Shown here one piece after another: positions 29,529 to 40,641 of a stretch of DNA of 64,000 bases (the first letter of the stretch is position 1; each line of letters starts with the position of its first letter). The notes under the pieces are model-generated. The model searched no databases, was not told where the DNA came from, and was given only the letters and a program-made list of their open reading frames with translations. The DNA comes from Roseovarius sp. M141. GTDB taxonomy: Bacteria > Pseudomonadota > Alphaproteobacteria > Rhodobacterales > Rhodobacteraceae. Location: positions 2,542,001-2,606,000 of the forward strand of contig NZ_VCNH01000008.1 of assembly GCF_024355225.1 (NCBI RefSeq), given 5' to 3'. The position numbers and the translations under genes were made by a program.

Positions 29529-31274
29529 CTATCGCATCTCTTCAGCCGGAGTGACGCCCAAGATACCCAAACCTGCGGAAATAACAACGCTTGCAGCCTT
29601 GACCAGCGCGATTTTCGCCTGTGTCGTCGCCGGGTCGCCCTCCTGAAGGAACCGCAGTTCGGGCGCGTCATGGCCGCGATTCCACAGCGCATGCACCTCG
29701 GATGCCAGATCGTAGAGGTAGAACGCGACGCGGTGCGGCTCGTTCGTGCGCCCGGCGATTTCCACCAGACGCGGCCATTCCGCGATCTTGCGCGCCAGCG
29801 CCAGCTCGGCCTCGTGGGCGATCAGGTCCAGATCGGCGGCATTCAGCGCTGCGTCCGACACGTCAATCCCCGCCTCGGTCGCCTTGCGCATCACCGAGCG
29901 CACGCGGGCATGGGCGTATTGCACGTAGAACACCGGGTTATCCTTGGACTGCTCCAGCACCTTGTCGAAATCGAAATCGAGCGGCGCGTCGTTCTTGCGG
30001 GTCAGCATGACAAAGCGGGTCACATCCGCGCCGACCAGTTCCACCACGTCGCGCAGCGTCACGAAAGTGCCGGCGCGCTTGGACATCTTGAACGGCTCGC
30101 CATTCTTCCACAGCTTGACCAGTTGGGTCAGCTTGATCTCCAGCGGCACCTTGCCGTCCGACAGGGCCGAAACGGCGGCCTTCATGCGTTTGACGTAACC
30201 ACCATGATCGGCGCCGAAGACGTCGATCAGCAGGTCGAACCCGCGCGTCACCTTGTCGTAATGATAGGCGATGTCGGGGGCGAAATAGGTCCAGCTTCCG
30301 TCGGATTTCTTGACCGGGCGATCCACGTCGTCGCCATGCGCGCTGGAGCGGAAAAGCGTCTGTTCGCGCGGTTCCCAATCCTCGGGCATCTTGCCCTTTG
30401 GCGGCTCCAGAACGCCCTCGTAAATCAACCCCTTGTCGTCCAGTGACTGAATCGCCTTTTCGATCAACCCCGTGCCGTAAAAGGACTTTTCCGAGCTGAA
30501 CTTGTCCATCTCGACGCCGAGCGATTTCAGATCGGCGCGGATCAGGTCCATCATGGCACCCGTCGCATAGTCGCGCAATTCGTCCAGCCAGACCTCTTCT
30601 GGCTGACCGACCCAGGCATCGCCAACCTTGTCTTTTAGTGCCTCGCCGGTCGCGATCAGGTAATCACCGGGATAGGTGCCATCGGGGAAATCGACGGCGC
30701 GGCCATGCGCCTCAAGATACCGCAGGTAGACGGACCGGGCCAAAGTGTCGACCTGCGCGCCGCCATCGTTGATGTAGTATTCGCGGGTGACGTCATGGCC
30801 GGTGAAATCCAGCAGGCTGGCCAGCGCATCGCCAAAAACCGCGCCCCGCGTGTGGCCGACATGCAAAGGGCCGGTGGGGTTGGCACTGACGTATTCAACG
30901 TTGACGCGCCGCCTCTGCCCCATGCCCGAGCGGCCAAAGTCGGTGCCCTTGGCCAGCGCCGCGCCGACGATGGCGCGCCAATTGTCGGGCGCAAGGCGCA
31001 GATTCAGAAATCCGGGGCCAGCCACCTCGGCGCTGTCGATGCGGGAATCTTTAGCCAGTTCGGCGGCCAATGCGTCGGCGATGTCGCGCGGTTTCATCCC
31101 CGCAGGTTTTGCCAGCACCATGGCGGCATTGGTTGCCATATCGCCATGCGCCGGATCGCGGGGCGGCTCGACCGTGACGTTGGCGCGGTCAAGGCCGGCG
31201 GGCAGCGCGCCGACGGTCTCCATCGCACTCAGGGCGTCCAGAACGGCGGCGCGGATATCGGTAAATAGGTTCAT
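29529..31274 (-). CDS. argS: Arginyl-tRNA synthetase
   Basis: A 581-residue class I synthetase with the HIGH motif in [13 protein letters not shown], a KMSKS-like MSKRAGT and the C-terminal DALR anticodon-binding domain (from about residue 450, [11 protein letters not shown]). The ATG at 31274 begins the usual MNLFTDI N-terminus; a short open extension upstream is not supported. Normal length. Confidence 0.95.
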
Positions 31275-31325
31275 GGCGTGGTTTCCTTGCATTCCCGGCC
31301 CGGTTTAACACTGCGGCGGCGCGCG

Positions 31326-33284
31326 TCAATCCGCACTGGTGCTGCGGGGTTTGTCAGCGCTCATGCTGTCGCCCTCTTGCTGTGCTTTTTCGTCGGCCTC
31401 CACCTGCGCCTTGTCGGCGGCCTTCTGGGCAACTTTGGCCTCGTCCTCGCTCGCGCCCTTGCGCTCGGCGGCTTCGGCGGCACGTTCACGGCCCGGCGAC
31501 AGGGCCAGCAGGCGCATGCCGGGGCCCGCCTTGATCTCGGCGTCGCCGGCAATGATGCGCATGTTGCGGCCCGGCGTCAGTTCGGCCAGCGGAACCGAGT
31601 CGGGGTTGTCGGCCTGCCAGTCATCCACGCCGTATTCCTCGGTGATGTTGGTGGCGCGAATTTCCCAGCCCTGCCGCATGTGGCGCGCCAGTTCCAGATA
31701 GCGCAGGCCGCCCGCAATGCTGCGCCCGCCCAAGGTGGCGGGCAACGCATGGCGCGTCTGTTCCTGCTTGGCGCGTTTCAACTGATAGACATGTTCGCGC
31801 CCAAATTCCGGGCCAAGGTCGGTCGCGACCAGTGTGTTGTAGGCGTCATTATCAGACGATGCGATGACGCGCCCAAAGCTGATGAACTCGACGCCATGCT
31901 CGGCCCCGTCCGACAGGATGTCACCCACATAGATTGGCAAGCCTTGCTCGCGCGCCGACCGCAGGCGCGCGCGGTTGGCGTCCGCAATCAGCACCGGGAT
32001 CTCTTCTTTTTGCAATGCGGCGGCAAAGGCGGACGAGAATTGTGAACCGCCGACGAAGATGACCCCAGGCACCTGCCCGCCCGCCAGCCCCAGCGCCTGC
32101 CCCATGGGCCGCAAGGTAAAGCCGTGCAGAACCACAGTCGCCGCCACCAGGGCAAACGCCAGCGGCGTCAGAAGGGCCGCATCGGCGATGCCCGCGCTGA
32201 CCAACCGGTCCGAAAACAGCCCCGCCACCGCCACCAGAACCACGCCGCGCGGGCCGGTAAAAGCAACCAGCAGACGCTCTTTCATCGGGATGTTGGTGAA
32301 GGCCAGCGACAGCATCACCGTAACCGGGCGCACCACAAGGATCGTCACTACGATGAACGCCAGCGCAGGCCAGCCCAACAGGCTGAGCCGTTCAATATTC
32401 ATCGATGCCGCCAGCAGAATGAACACGCCCGACACCAGCAGGACCGTCGCGTGTTCCTTGAACCGGCGCAGTTCAGTATAGCTGGGCAGGTCCGCGTTGG
32501 CGATGTAGAAGCCCATGATCGTGACCGCCAGAAGGCCGCTTTCGTGCAGCACGTGATCGGCCAGCGCGAAAACCACCAGTAACGACGCAAACAGGACCGG
32601 AACCTTCATGTATTCCGGCACCCTGCCCCGGCGGAAGCCTTCGGACAGAAACCACCCTGCGGCCACGCCCATCATGGTCGCGCCGACGATGCCGACGCTC
32701 ATGTCCCAGATCGCAGCGCCAAAGGTTTCGCTGGCGTAGACAACCAGCACGACCTCGAACGCCAGAACCGCCGCCAGCGCGCCGATCGGGTCGTTTACGA
32801 TCGCCTCCCATTGCAACAATTGCGAAGGACGCTTGGCCAGACGCGCGGTGCGCAAGAGTGGCGCGATCACTGTAGGGCCGGTCACGATCATGATCCCGCC
32901 AAAGACCGCCGCACTGGCCCAGCTCAGCCCGGCCACATAATGCAACGCCAGCGCCGATCCCAGCCAGCCCACCGGCGCGCCGATCAGCACCAGCCTGCGC
33001 ACACCCTTGGCCGCCTCGCGCAAGCCGCGCAGGTTCAGCGTCATGCCACCTTCAAAGAGGATGATCGCCACCGCGATACTGATCATCGGCCCCATCAGCG
33101 GGCCGATATCACGCTCGGGGTTGAAAATGCCCAGCCCCGGCCCGATGGCCAGCCCCGCCAGCAGCATCAGCACGATGGCCGGCAGCCGCAGCTTCCATGC
33201 GACCCACTGGGCCCCGACGCCGATGGCGCCCACCAGCGCGAACGCCATGACGGGCGACATTGCGCCCGCGGTCTCGACAGCCAT
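31326..33284 (-). CDS. CPA-type sodium:proton antiporter with RCK/TrkA-N domain
   Basis: A 652-residue protein with about twelve membrane segments. An ND pair in QWEAIVNDPIGALAA fits the antiporter ion site, and a Rossmann-like regulatory domain starts near residue 405 (VIFVGGSQFSSAFAAAL). The last 60 residues are a highly charged Glu/Lys/Ala tail predicted to be helical. NAD(H)-sensing RCK domains commonly gate such exchangers. It is downstream of the dNTPase gene, 3 bp away, and probably co-transcribed. Confidence 0.85.
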   Translation of the reverse strand: MAVETAGAMSPVMAFALVGAIGVGAQWVAWKLRLPAIVLMLLAGLAIGPGLGIFNPERDIGPLMGPMISIAVAIILFEGGMTLNLRGLREAAKGVRRLVLIGAPVGWLGSALALHYVAGLSWASAAVFGGIMIVTGPTVIAPLLRTARLAKRPSQLLQWEAIVNDPIGALAAVLAFEVVLVVYASETFGAAIWDMSVGIVGATMMGVAAGWFLSEGFRRGRVPEYMKVPVLFASLLVVFALADHVLHESGLLAVTIMGFYIANADLPSYTELRRFKEHATVLLVSGVFILLAASMNIERLSLLGWPALAFIVVTILVVRPVTVMLSLAFTNIPMKERLLVAFTGPRGVVLVAVAGLFSDRLVSAGIADAALLTPLAFALVAATVVLHGFTLRPMGQALGLAGGQVPGVIFVGGSQFSSAFAAALQKEEIPVLIADANRARLRSAREQGLPIYVGDILSDGAEHGVEFISFGRVIASSDNDAYNTLVATDLGPEFGREHVYQLKRAKQEQTRHALPATLGGRSIAGGLRYLELARHMRQGWEIRATNITEEYGVDDWQADNPDSVPLAELTPGRNMRIIAGDAEIKAGPGMRLLALSPGRERAAEAAERKGASEDEAKVAQKAADKAQVEADEKAQQEGDSMSADKPRSTSAD

Positions 33285-33287
33285 GGC

Positions 33288-34487
33288 CTATCCTTCCATT
33301 TTTTCGGGCCAGGATCCGGCTCCGCCGCGCCCGCCCAAGTGCCGCGCGTGTTGCGCCAGGGCAAAACGGTCCGTCATCCCTGCAATGTAATCACTAACAA
33401 GCCGTGCAAGTTCCGTCGTTGTTTCGGCCGCCCGCACATCGCACTGCCAGCGGCGCGGCAAATGGTCCGGCTGCGCCATGTAGAACGGGAACAGCCCATC
33501 GACCACTGCCGTCGCCTGCGCGCGCTGCACCATGACCATCGGCGCGCGATACATCCGCTTGAAAAGAAAGCGGCGCACACCTTGCAAACCCTGCCACAGG
33601 CCGGGTGAAAACCGGATGACCGGCTGGCCAAAATGGCGCACGGCGTCGATGTCCGGCAGATCGGCGGCGGCAATGATGCCGCGCGACGCGTCGATCACGT
33701 CGCCCACCATCACACCAAACACCCGGCGCAGCGCCTCGTGACGGCGTCGATACCCATCGAGGCCCGGATAGAGCCGATCAACCTCGGCGTAGCACGGGCC
33801 GACGATGGGCAGCGCGGCAACCTCGTCCTCGCTGAACAGACCCGCGCGCAGGCCATCATGCAGATCGTGGTTGTTATAGGCGATGTCATCGGCCAGCGCG
33901 GCCACCTGCGCCTCGGCCCCGGCATGGGTGTGCAGTTCCAGATCGTGGCAGGCGGCGTATTGGGCCAGCGCATAGGGCAGATCGCCGGTCACAGGACCAT
34001 TATGCTTGGCCAGCCCCTCCAGCGTCTCCCAGCTGAGGTTCAGGCCGTCGAATTCAGCATAATGCCGCTCCAGCGCCGTGACGATGCGGATCGCCTGCGC
34101 GTTGTGGTCAAAGCCGCCGTAGGGCTGCATCAGGCGATGCAACGCGTCCTCGCCGGTATGTCCGAACGGCGTGTGGCCCAGATCATGCGCCAGCGCGACC
34201 GCCTCGGTCAGCTCTCCGTTCAGGCCCAGAGCGCCGGATATCGTCCGCGCGACCTGCGCAACCTCGATGGAGTGCGACAGGCGCGTGCGGAAATAATCGC
34301 CCTCATGTGCAACGAAGACCTGCGTCTTGTGTTTCAGTCGACGAAACGCGCTGGAGTGGATAATCCGGTCGCGATCACGCTGAAAACACGAGCGAAATGC
34401 GCTTTCCTCCTCGGGCACGAGCCGTCCGCGCGATTGGCTGGGCCGCGCGGCAATGGGCGATGGCACGGGCATATGCGACGCGGTCAT
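33288..34487 (-). CDS. dgt: Deoxyguanosinetriphosphate triphosphohydrolase-like protein
   Basis: A 399-residue HD-domain protein with metal ligands in TRLSHSIEVAQ, the HD pair in ALAHDLGHTPFGHTGEDAL, and the family segment FRRLKHKTQVFV. Members hydrolyse dNTPs to nucleosides and triphosphate, helping balance pools. This is the shorter type 2 subfamily. ATG 34487 has AGGAG upstream. It is divergent from erpA, an arrangement common in Rhodobacteraceae. Confidence 0.88.
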   Translation of the reverse strand: MTASHMPVPSPIAARPSQSRGRLVPEEESAFRSCFQRDRDRIIHSSAFRRLKHKTQVFVAHEGDYFRTRLSHSIEVAQVARTISGALGLNGELTEAVALAHDLGHTPFGHTGEDALHRLMQPYGGFDHNAQAIRIVTALERHYAEFDGLNLSWETLEGLAKHNGPVTGDLPYALAQYAACHDLELHTHAGAEAQVAALADDIAYNNHDLHDGLRAGLFSEDEVAALPIVGPCYAEVDRLYPGLDGYRRRHEALRRVFGVMVGDVIDASRGIIAAADLPDIDAVRHFGQPVIRFSPGLWQGLQGVRRFLFKRMYRAPMVMVQRAQATAVVDGLFPFYMAQPDHLPRRWQCDVRAAETTTELARLVSDYIAGMTDRFALAQHARHLGGRGGAGSWPEKMEG

Positions 34488-34578
34488 GGGCGGGCTCCTT
34501 GCCGGGTGGTCATCGGGGGCATATATTGCATTTGAAACCGGCGCGAAACATTTCTGCGCCAAACGACGGAGATCCGCG

Positions 34579-34902
34579 ATGAACCTGCCGCCCAAAGTCA
34601 CCGACCGCGCGTTTGAACGCCTTAGCGAAATCGGGGCAGGCAATCAGGGTCAGGCCCTGCGCGTCGCCGTCGAGGGCGGAGGATGTTCAGGCTTTCAATA
34701 CGAGATCAAGCTGGACAACCCGGCAGGTGATGATCTGGTGCTGGAAGGTCAGGGCCAGAAGGTGGTGATCGACGCCGTGTCGCTGCCATTCCTGACCGGC
34801 GCGGTCATAGATTTCAGCGAAGAGTTGATCGGCGCGCGGTTCGTCATCGAAAATCCGAATGCCAGCAGCAGCTGCGGCTGTGGAACATCATTTTCTATGT
34901 AA
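34579..34902 (+). CDS. erpA: Iron-sulfur cluster insertion protein ErpA
   Basis: A 107-residue A-type carrier with the three cluster-binding cysteines: GGGCSGFQY and SSSCGCGTSF. It delivers Fe-S clusters to apoproteins. The start at 34579 is supported by GGAG nine bases upstream; the upstream frame overlaps the divergent dNTPase gene. ErpA versus IscA/HesB is by best resemblance. Confidence 0.9.
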   Translation: MNLPPKVTDRAFERLSEIGAGNQGQALRVAVEGGGCSGFQYEIKLDNPAGDDLVLEGQGQKVVIDAVSLPFLTGAVIDFSEELIGARFVIENPNASSSCGCGTSFSM

Positions 34903-34937
34903 ATCAAGAGCGTGCGCGCCTATCCTGAGGCATTACA

Positions 34938-35846
34938 TCACTCCGCCGTAACGACCCTGCGCATCGTGGCCGCCGGATAGACCTGATCATAGATCAGCCA
35001 CACCCCCGCCGTGATCACAAGTGTCGCCCCGATATAGATCGCCGCGCCCGGCACCTCGCCGAATATGGCGGCGCCAATGACGACCATCCAGAGGAATTGC
35101 AGGTTCATCAGAGGTGTGATCACATAGGCCGGTAGCGCCCGAAATGCGCCGACCAGCAGCCAGCGCGCCGCAAACAAAAGCGCGCCATAGGCGCAGGCCC
35201 AGCCCAGATCGGCCCGTCCCATCGGCGCCCAGACAAAGGGCAGCGCGCAGGCCATGACTCCGGCCAGCGCCAAATTCGGCCAGAACACCTGCGCCAGCAG
35301 GTTGACGTCACGCGTCCCGATGTACCGCGACGCCATCATTGATATCGTTCCCAACAGCACGGCGGCCAGCGCCACCGCATGGCCGAGGCCAAGACTGCTG
35401 ATCCCGGCGGGTGCGACCCACAGCAAGCCAACCAGCCCCAGCATCAGCGCACCCCATGCCTGCGGGCGCACCGACTCGCCCAGCACGGGGCCGGACAGGA
35501 GCGCTGCGAAAAGCGGGATCATCGCGATGAACAGGAATACTTCGGCAAAGGGTAGCAGGCGGAACGCATGGAAAAACGCGGCGGCGCCCAGCACCGTCGC
35601 CGCGCTGCGGATCGCCATGGCGCGCGGGCATGCCGTGCGCACCCCGCGCGGCGCAGGCCCCGCGCGGTCGGCCAGCACCGCCAGCAGCGCGACAATACCG
35701 CCCGACAGCGCGAAGAGCTGCGGCGCGGCATAGCTGGCGGCGAACATCTTGGTAATCGCGTCGGCGCCGGAGATCAGCGCCGTATAGCCGATCGTCAGGC
35801 CAACCCCGGTCAGGATTGCGGCGCCCCCGGTGCGCGCGGCGATCAT
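34938..35846 (-). CDS. DMT-family (EamA) transporter in repeat-peptide operon
   Basis: A 302-residue membrane protein with ten hydrophobic segments in two EamA repeats. Its ATG overlaps the stop of the 359-residue gene (ATGA, 35843-35846), so it is translationally coupled to it. EamA proteins export metabolites, amino acids or drugs. Here the coupling suggests export of a product linked to the repeat peptide, or of a small molecule made with it. Substrate unknown. Confidence 0.8.
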   Translation of the reverse strand: MIAARTGGAAILTGVGLTIGYTALISGADAITKMFAASYAAPQLFALSGGIVALLAVLADRAGPAPRGVRTACPRAMAIRSAATVLGAAAFFHAFRLLPFAEVFLFIAMIPLFAALLSGPVLGESVRPQAWGALMLGLVGLLWVAPAGISSLGLGHAVALAAVLLGTISMMASRYIGTRDVNLLAQVFWPNLALAGVMACALPFVWAPMGRADLGWACAYGALLFAARWLLVGAFRALPAYVITPLMNLQFLWMVVIGAAIFGEVPGAAIYIGATLVITAGVWLIYDQVYPAATMRRVVTAE

Positions 35847-36922
35847 GAGCGCGCCTCCGCAATGGGGCGCAGCCCGACACGGGCGAACCCCTCGAAGAAC
35901 GCGCCAAACTGATCGGTCGATGCCTCTGCCGCAACCAGCGCCGCCTGCGCCTCGCCTGACAGCTGGCCGCACACTTCGGTGCGCATCACCTCCCAATCGG
36001 CGGAGCGGCCCGCACCCATGGAATAGATGCACTGCGACAGTTCCCGCAGCGGCGCCGAGGCCGGGCGCGTGCGCGCAAAGGTCAGTCGCCCCCGCGGGAC
36101 ATTATCGCCAAAGCCACCCTGCCCGGCGCGGGACATGAACCAGTTCAGCATCAGGTATTCGTGGTAGTCGTCCTGTAGCCCGTCGCAATCCTTCAATGTA
36201 AAAGTGCGGATCTGCTGGGTCAGCCAGAGCTCCCACACCCGGGGTACCGCTTGCCCGGCAAAGCGCAGGGCAAGACAGATTTCGGCCAGAAGGTCGGCGT
36301 TGAAATCAAGGAATGCCAGCGTGCCGGCGAACATCAGGCTGGATGTGGTGGCGGCGCAGATCCTCGGATCCTTGCGACCGTATTCTGACAGGTAGAACAC
36401 GATATGGGTCAACTCATACGCCGCCTTCTTGTTCGGCATGGCGAAGGTTTGCGACCGCGCGGCAAATCGGCGCAACCGCGCGTCCAGCCCATCATCGGCG
36501 GGCAGCGGATCAATCCCGCGCCGCGCACACAGGCGCCGCGCCTCTGCGCGTTGCAGATCAGAAAGCTCTGCCTCGGGTAGGCCCTGCTGCGCGACCCATT
36601 CGGTCAATGCCGCCCCCTTGTTGCCGGGCGCGCCCAGATCCTCGAGATCAAGGCAGATCGACAACAGAAATCTGTAATACTGCGGAAAGAACTCCATCCG
36701 CTGTTCGATATCGTCATGGAATGCCCCGTACACGTCAAGCGCGCCGGGTGCCAGATCGGCGCCGGTCGACTCCAGGATGTTCAGCATCTCGGCGTTTTCC
36801 TTGAGCCAGAAAACATCCTCTTGGGTGCGTCGCCCCTGGGCAAAAACCTTGAGCAGGGCCGCCTGACGTGCGGCCTTGCTGTGTTGGCGGAACGGGACGT
36901 TGAGCTGGACGATAGTGGTCAT
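35843..36922 (-). CDS. Conserved-looking 359-residue protein of unknown function
   Basis: A soluble, mostly helical-looking protein. Distinct segments are YELTHIVFYLSEYG at residues 169-182, CLALRFAGQAVPRVWELWL at 216-234 and DDYHEYLMLNWF at 251-262. The conserved-looking His173 and His254 and Asp/Tyr pairs could form an active or metal site. I cannot name a family with certainty; the pattern Y-x-L-T-H-x-V/I-F-Y-L faintly recalls actinobacterial proteins of unknown function. A GGAG lies 8-11 bases before the ATG. It follows the repeat-peptide gene by 54 bp and overlaps the transporter gene. Confidence 0.75.
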   Translation of the reverse strand: MTTIVQLNVPFRQHSKAARQAALLKVFAQGRRTQEDVFWLKENAEMLNILESTGADLAPGALDVYGAFHDDIEQRMEFFPQYYRFLLSICLDLEDLGAPGNKGAALTEWVAQQGLPEAELSDLQRAEARRLCARRGIDPLPADDGLDARLRRFAARSQTFAMPNKKAAYELTHIVFYLSEYGRKDPRICAATTSSLMFAGTLAFLDFNADLLAEICLALRFAGQAVPRVWELWLTQQIRTFTLKDCDGLQDDYHEYLMLNWFMSRAGQGGFGDNVPRGRLTFARTRPASAPLRELSQCIYSMGAGRSADWEVMRTEVCGQLSGEAQAALVAAEASTDQFGAFFEGFARVGLRPIAEARS

Positions 36923-36976
36923 GTCTTTGATCTCCAGTGATCAGTCCCGGCCCAAGGCCCCGTTCAGGGTTCAGCC

Positions 36977-37210
36977 TTAGAGGCTGGATGTAAACATTTC
37001 GACAGCGTCACCTTCACGCGCCCGGGCAGCAGGGGCCAGCGATGACGTGAACATTTCCAGCCCTTCACCAAGGCCGGCATCCGCGCTGGTGACAGGGCTC
37101 AGCGACGACGTGAACGCCTCGACGGCTGCGCCGTCGTGCAGGTTCATTGCGGCAACGGGCTTGGCGGCGGCTATTGCGGATGTGGATTCTACTTTACGTT
37201 GTGCGGACAT
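36977..37210 (-). CDS. Repeat peptide with three [VL]E[MA]FTSSL units (putative multi-core precursor or docking peptide)
   Basis: A 77-residue protein without cysteines. Residues 1-29 form a leader-like part (MSAQRKVEST...). Then VEAFTSSL (30-37), LEMFTSSL (51-58) and VEMFTSSL (70-77) follow, each after an acidic/Gly spacer, and the last copy ends exactly at the stop codon. Spacing is 21 and 19 residues. I start it at ATG 37210; a longer frame begins at TTG 37291. It is the first gene of an operon with a 359-residue protein and a DMT exporter. The layout resembles a multi-core ribosomal peptide precursor, but no known RiPP enzyme is adjacent. Confidence 0.7.
   Translation of the reverse strand: MSAQRKVESTSAIAAAKPVAAMNLHDGAAVEAFTSSLSPVTSADAGLGEGLEMFTSSLAPAARAREGDAVEMFTSSL
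36980..37123 (-). repeat. Three in-frame 24-bp repeats encoding [VL]E[MA]FTSSL
   Basis: Copies lie at 36980-37003, 37037-37060 and 37100-37123. The protein repeat is nearly identical, whereas the DNA differs at synonymous positions (for example two different Phe-Thr-Ser codon sets). The repeat is therefore maintained at the protein level and is not a fresh DNA duplication. Confidence 0.85.
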
Positions 37211-37591
37211 TATTTCATGTTTCCCAGAATGGCGTTTCAGACCCCTCAAGGCTTTGCACTCAATCCGAGTCTTGCCAAGAGGGTTTTTCAACTTAAAGAA
37301 GATATTCCATTCAACCCTTCAATCAACTTCTCCGTGTAAGCCTATCTTCTAAATACAAAAACTGGACGGCCGAAAAACTTATCCACGGCCTGAACTTATC
37401 CGGCTTCTTTCTGCCGTCTCAAAAATGGACGCCGCTGTTTTTAACGCAACCCTAACGTGTCGTTCGGAATCGATCGCCATACTGAGGCAGATCAGCCGCG
37501 GGAGCGAATCGCGGCGTGTTCCGCCAGCCGCTTGCCCCCGGCGCAAGCCTGGGCGATAGAAGAGGCGCCCCTACCGCAGCGAGGACCGCCC
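37211..37591. other. Divergent intergenic region between repeat-peptide operon and xthA
   Basis: The 381 bp are notably AT-richer than the genes on either side, especially 37200-37450, and should contain promoters for both directions. A lone DnaA-box-like TTATCCACG is at 37380. I see no gene, RNA motif or strong palindrome. Confidence 0.5.
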
Positions 37592-38374
37592 ATGAAGATC
37601 GCGTCATTCAACATCAACGGGATCAAGGCCCGCATCAATGCCCTGCCCGACTGGCTGGACGAGGCAGAGGCCGATGTCGTGCTGCTGCAAGAAATCAAGT
37701 CGGTGGATGAGGCATTTCCGCGCGAGATTTTCGAGGATCGCGGCTATACTGTGGAAACCCACGGGCAAAAGGGCTTCAACGGGGTTGCGATCCTTTCAAA
37801 GCTACCGCTGGAGGATGTGACGCGCGGCCTGCCCGGTGACGAGAGTGACGAACAGGCCCGCTGGATCGAGGCGACCATCATGGGCGACACCGCAGCGGTG
37901 CGGGTTTGCGGCCTCTACCTGCCCAACGGCAATCCGGTGCCGGGGCCGAAATACGACTATAAACTGGCCTGGATGGAGCGGATGCAAGCCCGCGCTGCCG
38001 ACCTTCTGGCGCTGGAAGAGCCGTTTCTGATGGCGGGCGATTATAACATCATCCCCCAGGACGAAGACGCCAAACGCCCCGAGGCGTGGCAGGAGGATGC
38101 GCTGGCCCGGCCTGATAGCCGCGCCGCCTATCGCCGGATCCTCAACATGGGCTTTACCGAAGCATTCCGCGCACGCCAAAACGGGCCGGGGCATTACACC
38201 TTCTGGGATTATCAGGCCGGTGCGTGGAACTGCGGCGACGGGATCCGCATTGACCATTTCCTGCTCAGCCCCGAATGTGCCGATCTGCTGGAGGACTGCC
38301 AGATCGATGCCGAGATTCGCGGCCGCGAGAAGCCCTCTGACCACGTCCCCATCTGGGTGCGCCTGCGCGCCTGA
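37592..38374 (+). CDS. xthA: Exodeoxyribonuclease III
   Basis: A 260-residue EEP-superfamily nuclease: NINGIKAR and LLQEIKS (metal Glu), GDYNIIPQ (Asp/Asn pair) and the C-terminal SDHVPIWVRL catalytic Asp-His. It is an AP endonuclease and 3' exonuclease in base excision repair. ATG 37592 follows GAGGA. Normal length. Confidence 0.93.
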   Translation: MKIASFNINGIKARINALPDWLDEAEADVVLLQEIKSVDEAFPREIFEDRGYTVETHGQKGFNGVAILSKLPLEDVTRGLPGDESDEQARWIEATIMGDTAAVRVCGLYLPNGNPVPGPKYDYKLAWMERMQARAADLLALEEPFLMAGDYNIIPQDEDAKRPEAWQEDALARPDSRAAYRRILNMGFTEAFRARQNGPGHYTFWDYQAGAWNCGDGIRIDHFLLSPECADLLEDCQIDAEIRGREKPSDHVPIWVRLRA

Positions 38375-38397
38375 CATCCCCCTGAAAGGGCGAACCC

Positions 38398-39291
38398 ATG
38401 GATAACCTGCGCGGCAGCGCGCTGATGGTTCTGGCGATGGCCGGATTCGCGCTGGAAGATTACTTTGTCAAACTGCTGTCGGTGCAGTTGCCCGTCGGGC
38501 AGATCCTGATGATGCTGGGGGCATCCGGTTGTCTGGTCTTTGCCGTCTTTACCAAGATGGGGCGCGGCAAACTGTTCACCCGCGTTCTGCTGACCCGCGC
38601 CGTGATGCTGCGCAATCTGGGCGAGATCATCGCCGCCGTGTGCTATGTTACCGCGCTGGCGCTGGCGGATCTGTCGACCGTGTCGGCCATTCTTCAGGCG
38701 ACGCCGCTGGCCGTGACGGTGGGCGCGGCGCTGTTCATGGGCGCGCAGGTCGGCTGGCGGCGCTGGTCGGCAATTCTGGTCGGCATGGCCGGCGTCCTGA
38801 TGATCGTGCGGCCCGGTCTGGACGCGTTCGATGCGTCTTCGATCTTTGCCATCGTTTCCGTCGTGGGCCTTGCCATACGAGATCTGGCAACGCGGGCGAT
38901 TCCGCCGTCTGTGTCGTCCATTCAGCTGTCCTGCTACGCGTTTGGCACTATGGTCCCGACCGGCGCTGTGATGCTGATGTTTCACGGCAATCTGACCCCG
39001 CTGGAGCCGGTTAGCTGGCTCTACCTCTTTGGCGCGATGGTGTTCGGTGTCGTGGCATATTACTTCATCGTCGGCGCGATGCGCGTAGGCGAAGTCGCAG
39101 CCGTCACGCCGTTTCGCTATGCGCGACTGATCTTTGCGCTGATCCTCGGCATGACGCTGCTGGGCGAGCGGCCCGATATGTGGACGCTGATCGGCGCCGC
39201 GATCATCATCGCCTCGGGGTTGTATACCCTGATCCGCGAGCAACGTCTGGCACGCGCCTACCGGCGCGCCAGACCTGCGGGGCCGCTGTAA
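38398..39291 (+). CDS. DMT-family (EamA) transporter
   Basis: A 297-residue ten-helix membrane protein with two EamA domains, including FALEDYFVKLLSV in the first helix and VAAVTPFRYARLIFALILG in the eighth to ninth. It starts 23 bp after xthA and is probably co-transcribed with it. It is not closely similar to the other EamA protein at 35 kb. Substrate unknown. Confidence 0.85.
   Translation: MDNLRGSALMVLAMAGFALEDYFVKLLSVQLPVGQILMMLGASGCLVFAVFTKMGRGKLFTRVLLTRAVMLRNLGEIIAAVCYVTALALADLSTVSAILQATPLAVTVGAALFMGAQVGWRRWSAILVGMAGVLMIVRPGLDAFDASSIFAIVSVVGLAIRDLATRAIPPSVSSIQLSCYAFGTMVPTGAVMLMFHGNLTPLEPVSWLYLFGAMVFGVVAYYFIVGAMRVGEVAAVTPFRYARLIFALILGMTLLGERPDMWTLIGAAIIIASGLYTLIREQRLARAYRRARPAGPL

Positions 39292-40641
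<1,350 letters not shown>

Follow-up and report, generated by a model that had tools for sequence, protein, structure and literature searches.

What might a bacterial peptide of 77 residues be for that repeats one short motif three times and is encoded just upstream of a 359-residue protein and a transporter? The question is raised by a 64,000-nucleotide stretch of the Roseovarius sp. M141 genome (contig NZ_VCNH01000008.1; the whole stretch is called the window here), whose open reading frames (ORFs) place the peptide gene (36977 to 37210), the gene of the 359-residue protein (35843 to 36922), and an EamA transporter gene (34938 to 35846) in this order on the minus strand, as a first-pass annotation had described. 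That annotation proposed a multi-core precursor for a ribosomally synthesized and posttranslationally modified peptide (RiPP) of a nonstandard class or, alternatively, a scaffold peptide, and it called the 359-residue protein unrecognized. The protein is, in fact, a member of the Pfam family DUF6902 (PF21843, residues 1 to 349; 525.2 bits against a cut-off of 27, E = 9.2e-158), although Pfam gives no function for it. Our comparison of the locus with its relatives considerably strengthens the RiPP-like reading, disfavors the scaffold, and shows that EamA is not a constant partner; that peptide and DUF6902 form a dedicated precursor-maturase pair is, in our view, very probable. The new part is the multi-core precursor with a putative maturase family: among the open-access papers searched (subscription journals and bioRxiv preprints were outside that scope), none contains the name DUF6902, and none of the titles listed concerns such a system.

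The pairing was followed through 126 DUF6902 loci, namely, those of 18 named genomes and of the window's own genome, 29 loci from a sample of its order, and 78 further ones. Of these, 125 were counted, the remaining one (L134, in genome G177) having an internal stop in the DUF6902 match and no tblastn match; named and sampled genomes may overlap, and L069 and L021, which are identical, count as two loci in the 125 and as a single entry in the set of 120 distinct peptides. In 124 of the 125 loci, a repeat peptide is encoded upstream of DUF6902 on the same strand. A position matrix found 121 of them, with a gap of at most 150 nt between peptide and DUF6902 in 119, and three divergent ones (L124, L130, and L132, of the MPTSN, MTSVA, and QSFS types) were recognized by eye. 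The sole open DUF6902 gene without a visible repeat peptide upstream is that of L105 (genome G117). At another locus (L133, genome G150), the DUF6902 gene is broken up into several reading frames, the repeat peptide next to it is damaged as well, and the two genes seem to be degenerating jointly. In the reverse direction, 380 genomes were searched with 13 aligned precursors as the query and no more than 8 candidates scored in each; 97 genomes were peptide-positive, every one of which has DUF6902, and no repeat peptide was found in a DUF6902-negative genome. Eleven DUF6902-positive genomes of the order sample fall outside these 97: three (G380, G386, and G388) were probably not drawn again and have peptides at their loci, six have divergent or partly masked peptides, and the last two are G177, with the stop in its DUF6902 match, and G117, with no peptide. 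DUF6902 homologs that regularly occur without the peptide, or repeats that are lost among relatives, were thus not found, and the idea of a multi-core precursor for a nonstandard RiPP stands in part, by indirect support.

The expected constant co-occurrence of all three partners holds for peptide and DUF6902 and fails for EamA. A homolog of the transporter follows DUF6902 in 77 of the 125 loci (tblastn with the window's EamA, E ≤ 1e-5), and a fixed three-gene operon is thereby ruled out; since only this one EamA served as the query at this threshold, divergent transporters could be missed. With EamA undetected in 48 loci, a dedicated exporter is not essential, at least not in that place, and in the 25 of these 48 viewed by eye, the next genes are hesB-like and other household genes. 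As for its distribution, 108 of 390 genomes sampled from the window's order have a DUF6902 match, which exceeds the cut-off in 107; they represent 47 of 139 genera, all in one family. A class-wide sample gave matches in 5 of 385 genomes, four of them from the window's family and the fifth (G392) below the cut-off, its protein being DUF6895 by Pfam (42.6 bits). Hence, in the order and class samples, the DUF6902 cut-off is reached only within the window's own bacterial family.

The peptide of the window, the only one whose start was checked, begins with MSAQRK, lacks cysteine, and has an N-terminal part (residues 1 to 26) followed by three units (VEAFTSSL, LEMFTSSL, and VEMFTSSL), in line with the pattern [VL]E[MA]FTSSL reported before. 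The FTSSL cores occupy residues 33 to 37 (37100 to 37114, minus strand), 54 to 58 (37037 to 37051), and 73 to 77 (36980 to 36994), the last one directly followed by the stop codon. They differ in their codons (e.g., TTC ACG TCG TCG CTG versus TTT ACA TCC AGC CTC), and both the earlier remark that the repeats are kept at the protein level and the one that the last ends at the stop proved correct. A chance repeat can be dismissed: shuffling of the 77 residues gave some 5-mer at least three times in only 43 of 100,000 trials (overlapping runs counted), and the presence of a repeat peptide at nearly every DUF6902 gene is stronger proof than shuffling.

Among the relatives, the unit has a consensus of roughly G-[DE]-x-x-x-[MLA]-F-[TS]-[STC]-x-x, and the 120 distinct peptides contain 1 to 20 scored units, most commonly 4 (24 of 120). 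These counts are too low at two loci with runs of N near the precursor (only two peptides have a single scored unit, namely, that of one such locus and that of the damaged L133), and a few scored units resemble chance matches (L028 and L117). The step from unit to unit is 20 residues in 312 and 21 residues in 248 of 649 cases (together 560); a step of 8 residues was seen 26 times, among them in doublets such as FTSGLVQMFTSGL. In L037, L038, L043, and L045, such eight-residue doublets stand among single cores and form a higher-order repeat. In 91 of the 120 distinct peptides, the stop codon immediately follows the final core, proline is the second residue after 524 of the 678 cores that have two following residues, and a leader motif is present in 73 of 121 peptides. 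Unlike the window's peptide, 66 of 121 have at least one cysteine in the repeat region. NCBIfam has no family for the peptide, and matches of precursors under curated family cut-offs were disregarded.

Core position 3 is serine in 660, threonine in 91, and cysteine in 19 of the 770 scored units and thus one of these three in all of them, as tallied with each core column left out during the unit search (the matrix had originally been seeded with S, T, or C). The 770 units count the identical L069 and L021 twice; the codon and identity analyses used 761. Within a peptide, the last four core residues are the same in 2595 of 2701 pairs, whereas the 7140 comparisons between peptides average 7.9%; of the 118 peptides that have at least two units, 98 show the same core throughout. 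Not every peptide keeps to one core: blocks of two core types (e.g., FSTSC with FSSGS on either side) occur in the precursors of L061, L063, L066, L072, L073, L087, L088, L091, and L096. At core positions 1 to 5, the proportion of differences within peptides is 0.52 to 0.72 per synonymous site (pS) and 0.03 to 0.13 per nonsynonymous site (pN). Because synonymous sites have strongly diverged, the uniformity of the core is kept by selection on the protein, and the same pS rules out that the cores are identical mainly because DNA was recently copied. Between species the core differs, with 35 core types among 121 labeled loci. The repeat number varies from peptide to peptide, with the core held fixed within most peptides and not across species. 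The core type tracks the DUF6902 tree with 45 changes, compared to 84 to 95 in 200 label shuffles; this tree (FastTree, without support tests) had 122 rows, 121 of them with a core label, and left out L131 and L133 (too short) and one protein identical to another.

What could DUF6902 do to such a peptide? The 359-residue protein also exceeds the Pfam cut-off of DUF6895 (PF21836, residues 19 to 225; 74.1 versus 23.8 bits, E = 1.6e-20), with a score far under that for DUF6902, and the profiles of the two families align with each other (hhalign, 95.4%, E = 2e-8, 148 columns). In an alignment of 26 DUF6902 and DUF6895 proteins, Y169, H173, D210, E214, Y253, and H254 are invariant (26 of 26). Y169 and H173 belong to the motif PNKKAAYELTHIVFYLSEYGR (residues 163 to 183; 36374 to 36436, minus strand), D210 and E214 are the two ends of a short segment (36281 to 36295), and Y253 and H254 are adjacent (36161 to 36166). 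These residues are enzyme-like, and judged from them DUF6902 may be an enzyme. NCBIfam has no family for it, and to our knowledge it is not among the RiPP maturase families. Among solved structures, neither a sequence search (E ≤ 1) nor a fold search with the mostly helical DUF6902 model (E ≤ 0.001) gave a match; LanC, MslH, and BotH are absent among the 50 best fold matches listed for the model, which excludes nothing.

A hint as to the reaction comes from the relative, DUF6895: a review (PMC13352647) cites a study by Shi et al. (ACS Catal 2026) that, by its title, concerns a DUF6895-family epimerase in lasso-peptide modification. DUF6895 was found in 13 of 398 genomes of the phylum, eight of the 13 in the window's own family, and in 3 of 234 and 1 of 189 genomes of two order-level samples, each including the genome used as the center; the source names of its matches include Bacteroidota, a cyanobacterium, and archaea. 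Nine DUF6895-like places lie away from the site between hesB and xthA at which the DUF6902 genes are found (see below), and seven were inspected, leaving out G833 and G843, both below the cut-off. All seven (L152 to L156, L179, and L180) have a precursor-like ORF directly upstream; since these ORFs were chosen by eye, they are supporting, not independent, evidence. In most of them, the leader resembles AGIINxxxxLxxL and the core resembles GxWxF[VI], the aromatic-rich cores including GPWFVLKE, DWTFVSPNYVYKG, and AGYVFVWDKYVYD, and those of L153, L154, and L180 contain the repeat twice. The DUF6895 copy of L155 is short and probably degenerate, and L179 agrees poorly with this pattern. From their sequences, these genes and ORFs are possibly undescribed peptide systems as well. 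DUF6902 thus resembles DUF6895 in profile, in six invariant residues, and in its upstream neighbor, but it is a separate Pfam family, partnered with short-core repeat precursors, and no lasso cyclase or leader peptidase is recognized by Pfam in the three genes of the locus or in seven flanking genes (29529 to 40641), nor a protease in the three genes.

In our model, the locus encodes a two-gene, RiPP-like system. The short gene would provide the precursor, in which an N-terminal leader precedes several short cores of one kind, arranged in repeats of 20 to 21 residues, and DUF6902 would be the dedicated maturase acting on each core, with core position 3 or its neighbor as the likeliest site of modification. 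That DUF6902 is a modifying enzyme, with its chemistry left open between epimerization and side-chain chemistry at position 3, we consider reasonably probable. The invariant Tyr/His/Asp/Glu set would suit acid/base chemistry at the alpha carbon, and a cofactor-independent exchange there, catalyzed by these residues of a mostly helical and possibly toroid-like protein, may be the most likely reaction, as the title of the DUF6895 paper says for that family; the assignment to epimerization in particular is tentative. A host protease would then probably free the cores for export, through EamA in those loci that have it; with regard to excision, we lean slightly toward it.

The same precursor-maturase pair might work by another chemistry, in which DUF6902 acts on the side chain at position 3 by dehydration or elimination of Ser, Thr, or Cys, by an acyl shift, or by ester formation. 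That position 3 is S, T, or C in all 770 units is more readily explained by a reaction of the side chain than by one at the alpha carbon alone. However, no kinase, ATP-grasp, or other activating domain is recognized in DUF6902 by Pfam or NCBIfam, and its sole named relative is an epimerase by title; we regard this route as the main alternative, conceivable though on the unlikely side. If, on the other hand, the repeats were a docking scaffold that binds several copies of DUF6902 or another protein, with the core unmodified, then the near-constant spacing of the units and the strict co-occurrence of both genes would be expected. This idea, which the first-pass annotation had put forward with the 359-residue protein as the ligand, fits poorly with a core that varies so widely between species while the invariant, enzyme-like polar residues of DUF6902 stay, and the DUF6895 relatives adjoin precursor-like ORFs with unrelated cores. 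We consider it very unlikely.

A folded repeat protein, whose units stack as a beta-solenoid or fiber with DUF6902 as a chaperone or modifier, is just as hard to credit. It is suggested by the AlphaFold2 model of a 12-unit precursor (L023), which has two strands per repeat and looks like a beta-solenoid, with a predicted local distance difference test score (pLDDT) of 66.8, a predicted template modeling score of 0.62, and a block pLDDT of about 71 to 77 across the middle. Yet AlphaFold2 is reported (PMC11795689) to draw unrealistic beta-solenoids for perfect repeats, and the model has no match among solved structures at E ≤ 0.001. Furthermore, 45 of the 120 distinct precursors, that of the window included, hold only 2 to 4 scored units, and no Pfam family reaches its cut-off with the window's peptide or its 12-unit relative.

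Multi-core RiPP precursors such as those of cyanobactins and dikaritins consist of a leader and repeated cores with spacers and adjoin a dedicated modifying protein. The system described here shares the leader, the spaced cores, and the (putative) modifying protein with them; it is set apart by up to 20 scored units and by a core that is uniform in most peptides and shifts between species. Epimerization, should our preferred reading hold, would find analogies elsewhere. The lasso-peptide epimerase MslH has a calcineurin-like fold and works with Ca(II) and two pairs of His and Asp residues (PMC10406935); it would resemble DUF6902 as a peptide epimerase with His/Asp acid/base chemistry, by analogy, but its fold is unlike the mostly helical DUF6902 model. 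Dermatan sulfate epimerase 1 (PMC8006597) has an alpha/alpha toroid domain and epimerizes by Tyr/His acid/base chemistry, which is a chemical analogy only, as its substrates are sugars. Another parallel is the yeast alpha-factor type of pheromone polyprotein, with several related or identical signaling peptides per precursor (PMC5850478), whereas the system here is bacterial and includes a paired putative modifying protein. It is imaginable that the precursor is a polyprotein of identical, species-specific short peptides, that DUF6902 represents a new class of cofactor-free epimerases, and that the product is a secreted private signal like alpha-factor, with a code held identical within a species by selection and switched between species; taken together, we think this improbable. 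With core identity within species and change between species, a signaling role is directly testable.

If the model is true, roughly one sampled genome in four (108 of 390) within one bacterial order carries an undescribed peptide pathway made of one candidate enzyme and one small precursor, which could readily be rebuilt in a laboratory host. DUF6902 would gain a function, DUF6895 would widen from lasso peptides towards a peptide-modifying superfamily, and the 35 core types would offer a natural series for specificity studies.

The third gene of the locus encodes an EamA-family transporter of 302 residues (PF00892, 36.3 bits against a cut-off of 28.2), as the first-pass annotation had said; its ATG overlaps the TGA of DUF6902 in the ATGA at 35843 to 35846. 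The borders of the cassette are a hesB-type gene (34579 to 34902, plus strand; Pfam Fe-S_biosyn) and an xthA-type gene (37592 to 38374, plus strand; Pfam Exo_endo_phos) that is divergent from the precursor. Since xthA lies divergently upstream in 120 of the 125 DUF6902 loci, the site of the cassette is fixed. Of 282 DUF6902-negative genomes, six were inspected at this site, four of them from the window's genus, and in all six, hesB and xthA are on one short contig piece with no DUF6902 or EamA match and no repeat peptide; the distance between the aligned ends of the two genes is 54 to 152 nt in five genomes and 858 nt in the sixth, whose gap was not examined. Because all are absent there, peptide and DUF6902 appear to be gained or lost as one cassette. 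Rfam gave no match at the gathering threshold within 34800 to 37800 and hence no structured RNA. A role in anti-phage defense was discarded, since neither the peptide nor DUF6902 matched a PADLOC family at E ≤ 1, as was cargo of mobile elements, with no DUF6902 match at E ≤ 1e-5 in plasmid and phage collections. A Pfam scan of the seven flanking genes also revealed arginyl-tRNA synthetase, a sodium/proton exchanger, an HD phosphohydrolase, and enolase, together with a second EamA-family gene (38398 to 39291, plus strand; 71.7 bits) that lies just past xthA and outside the cassette.
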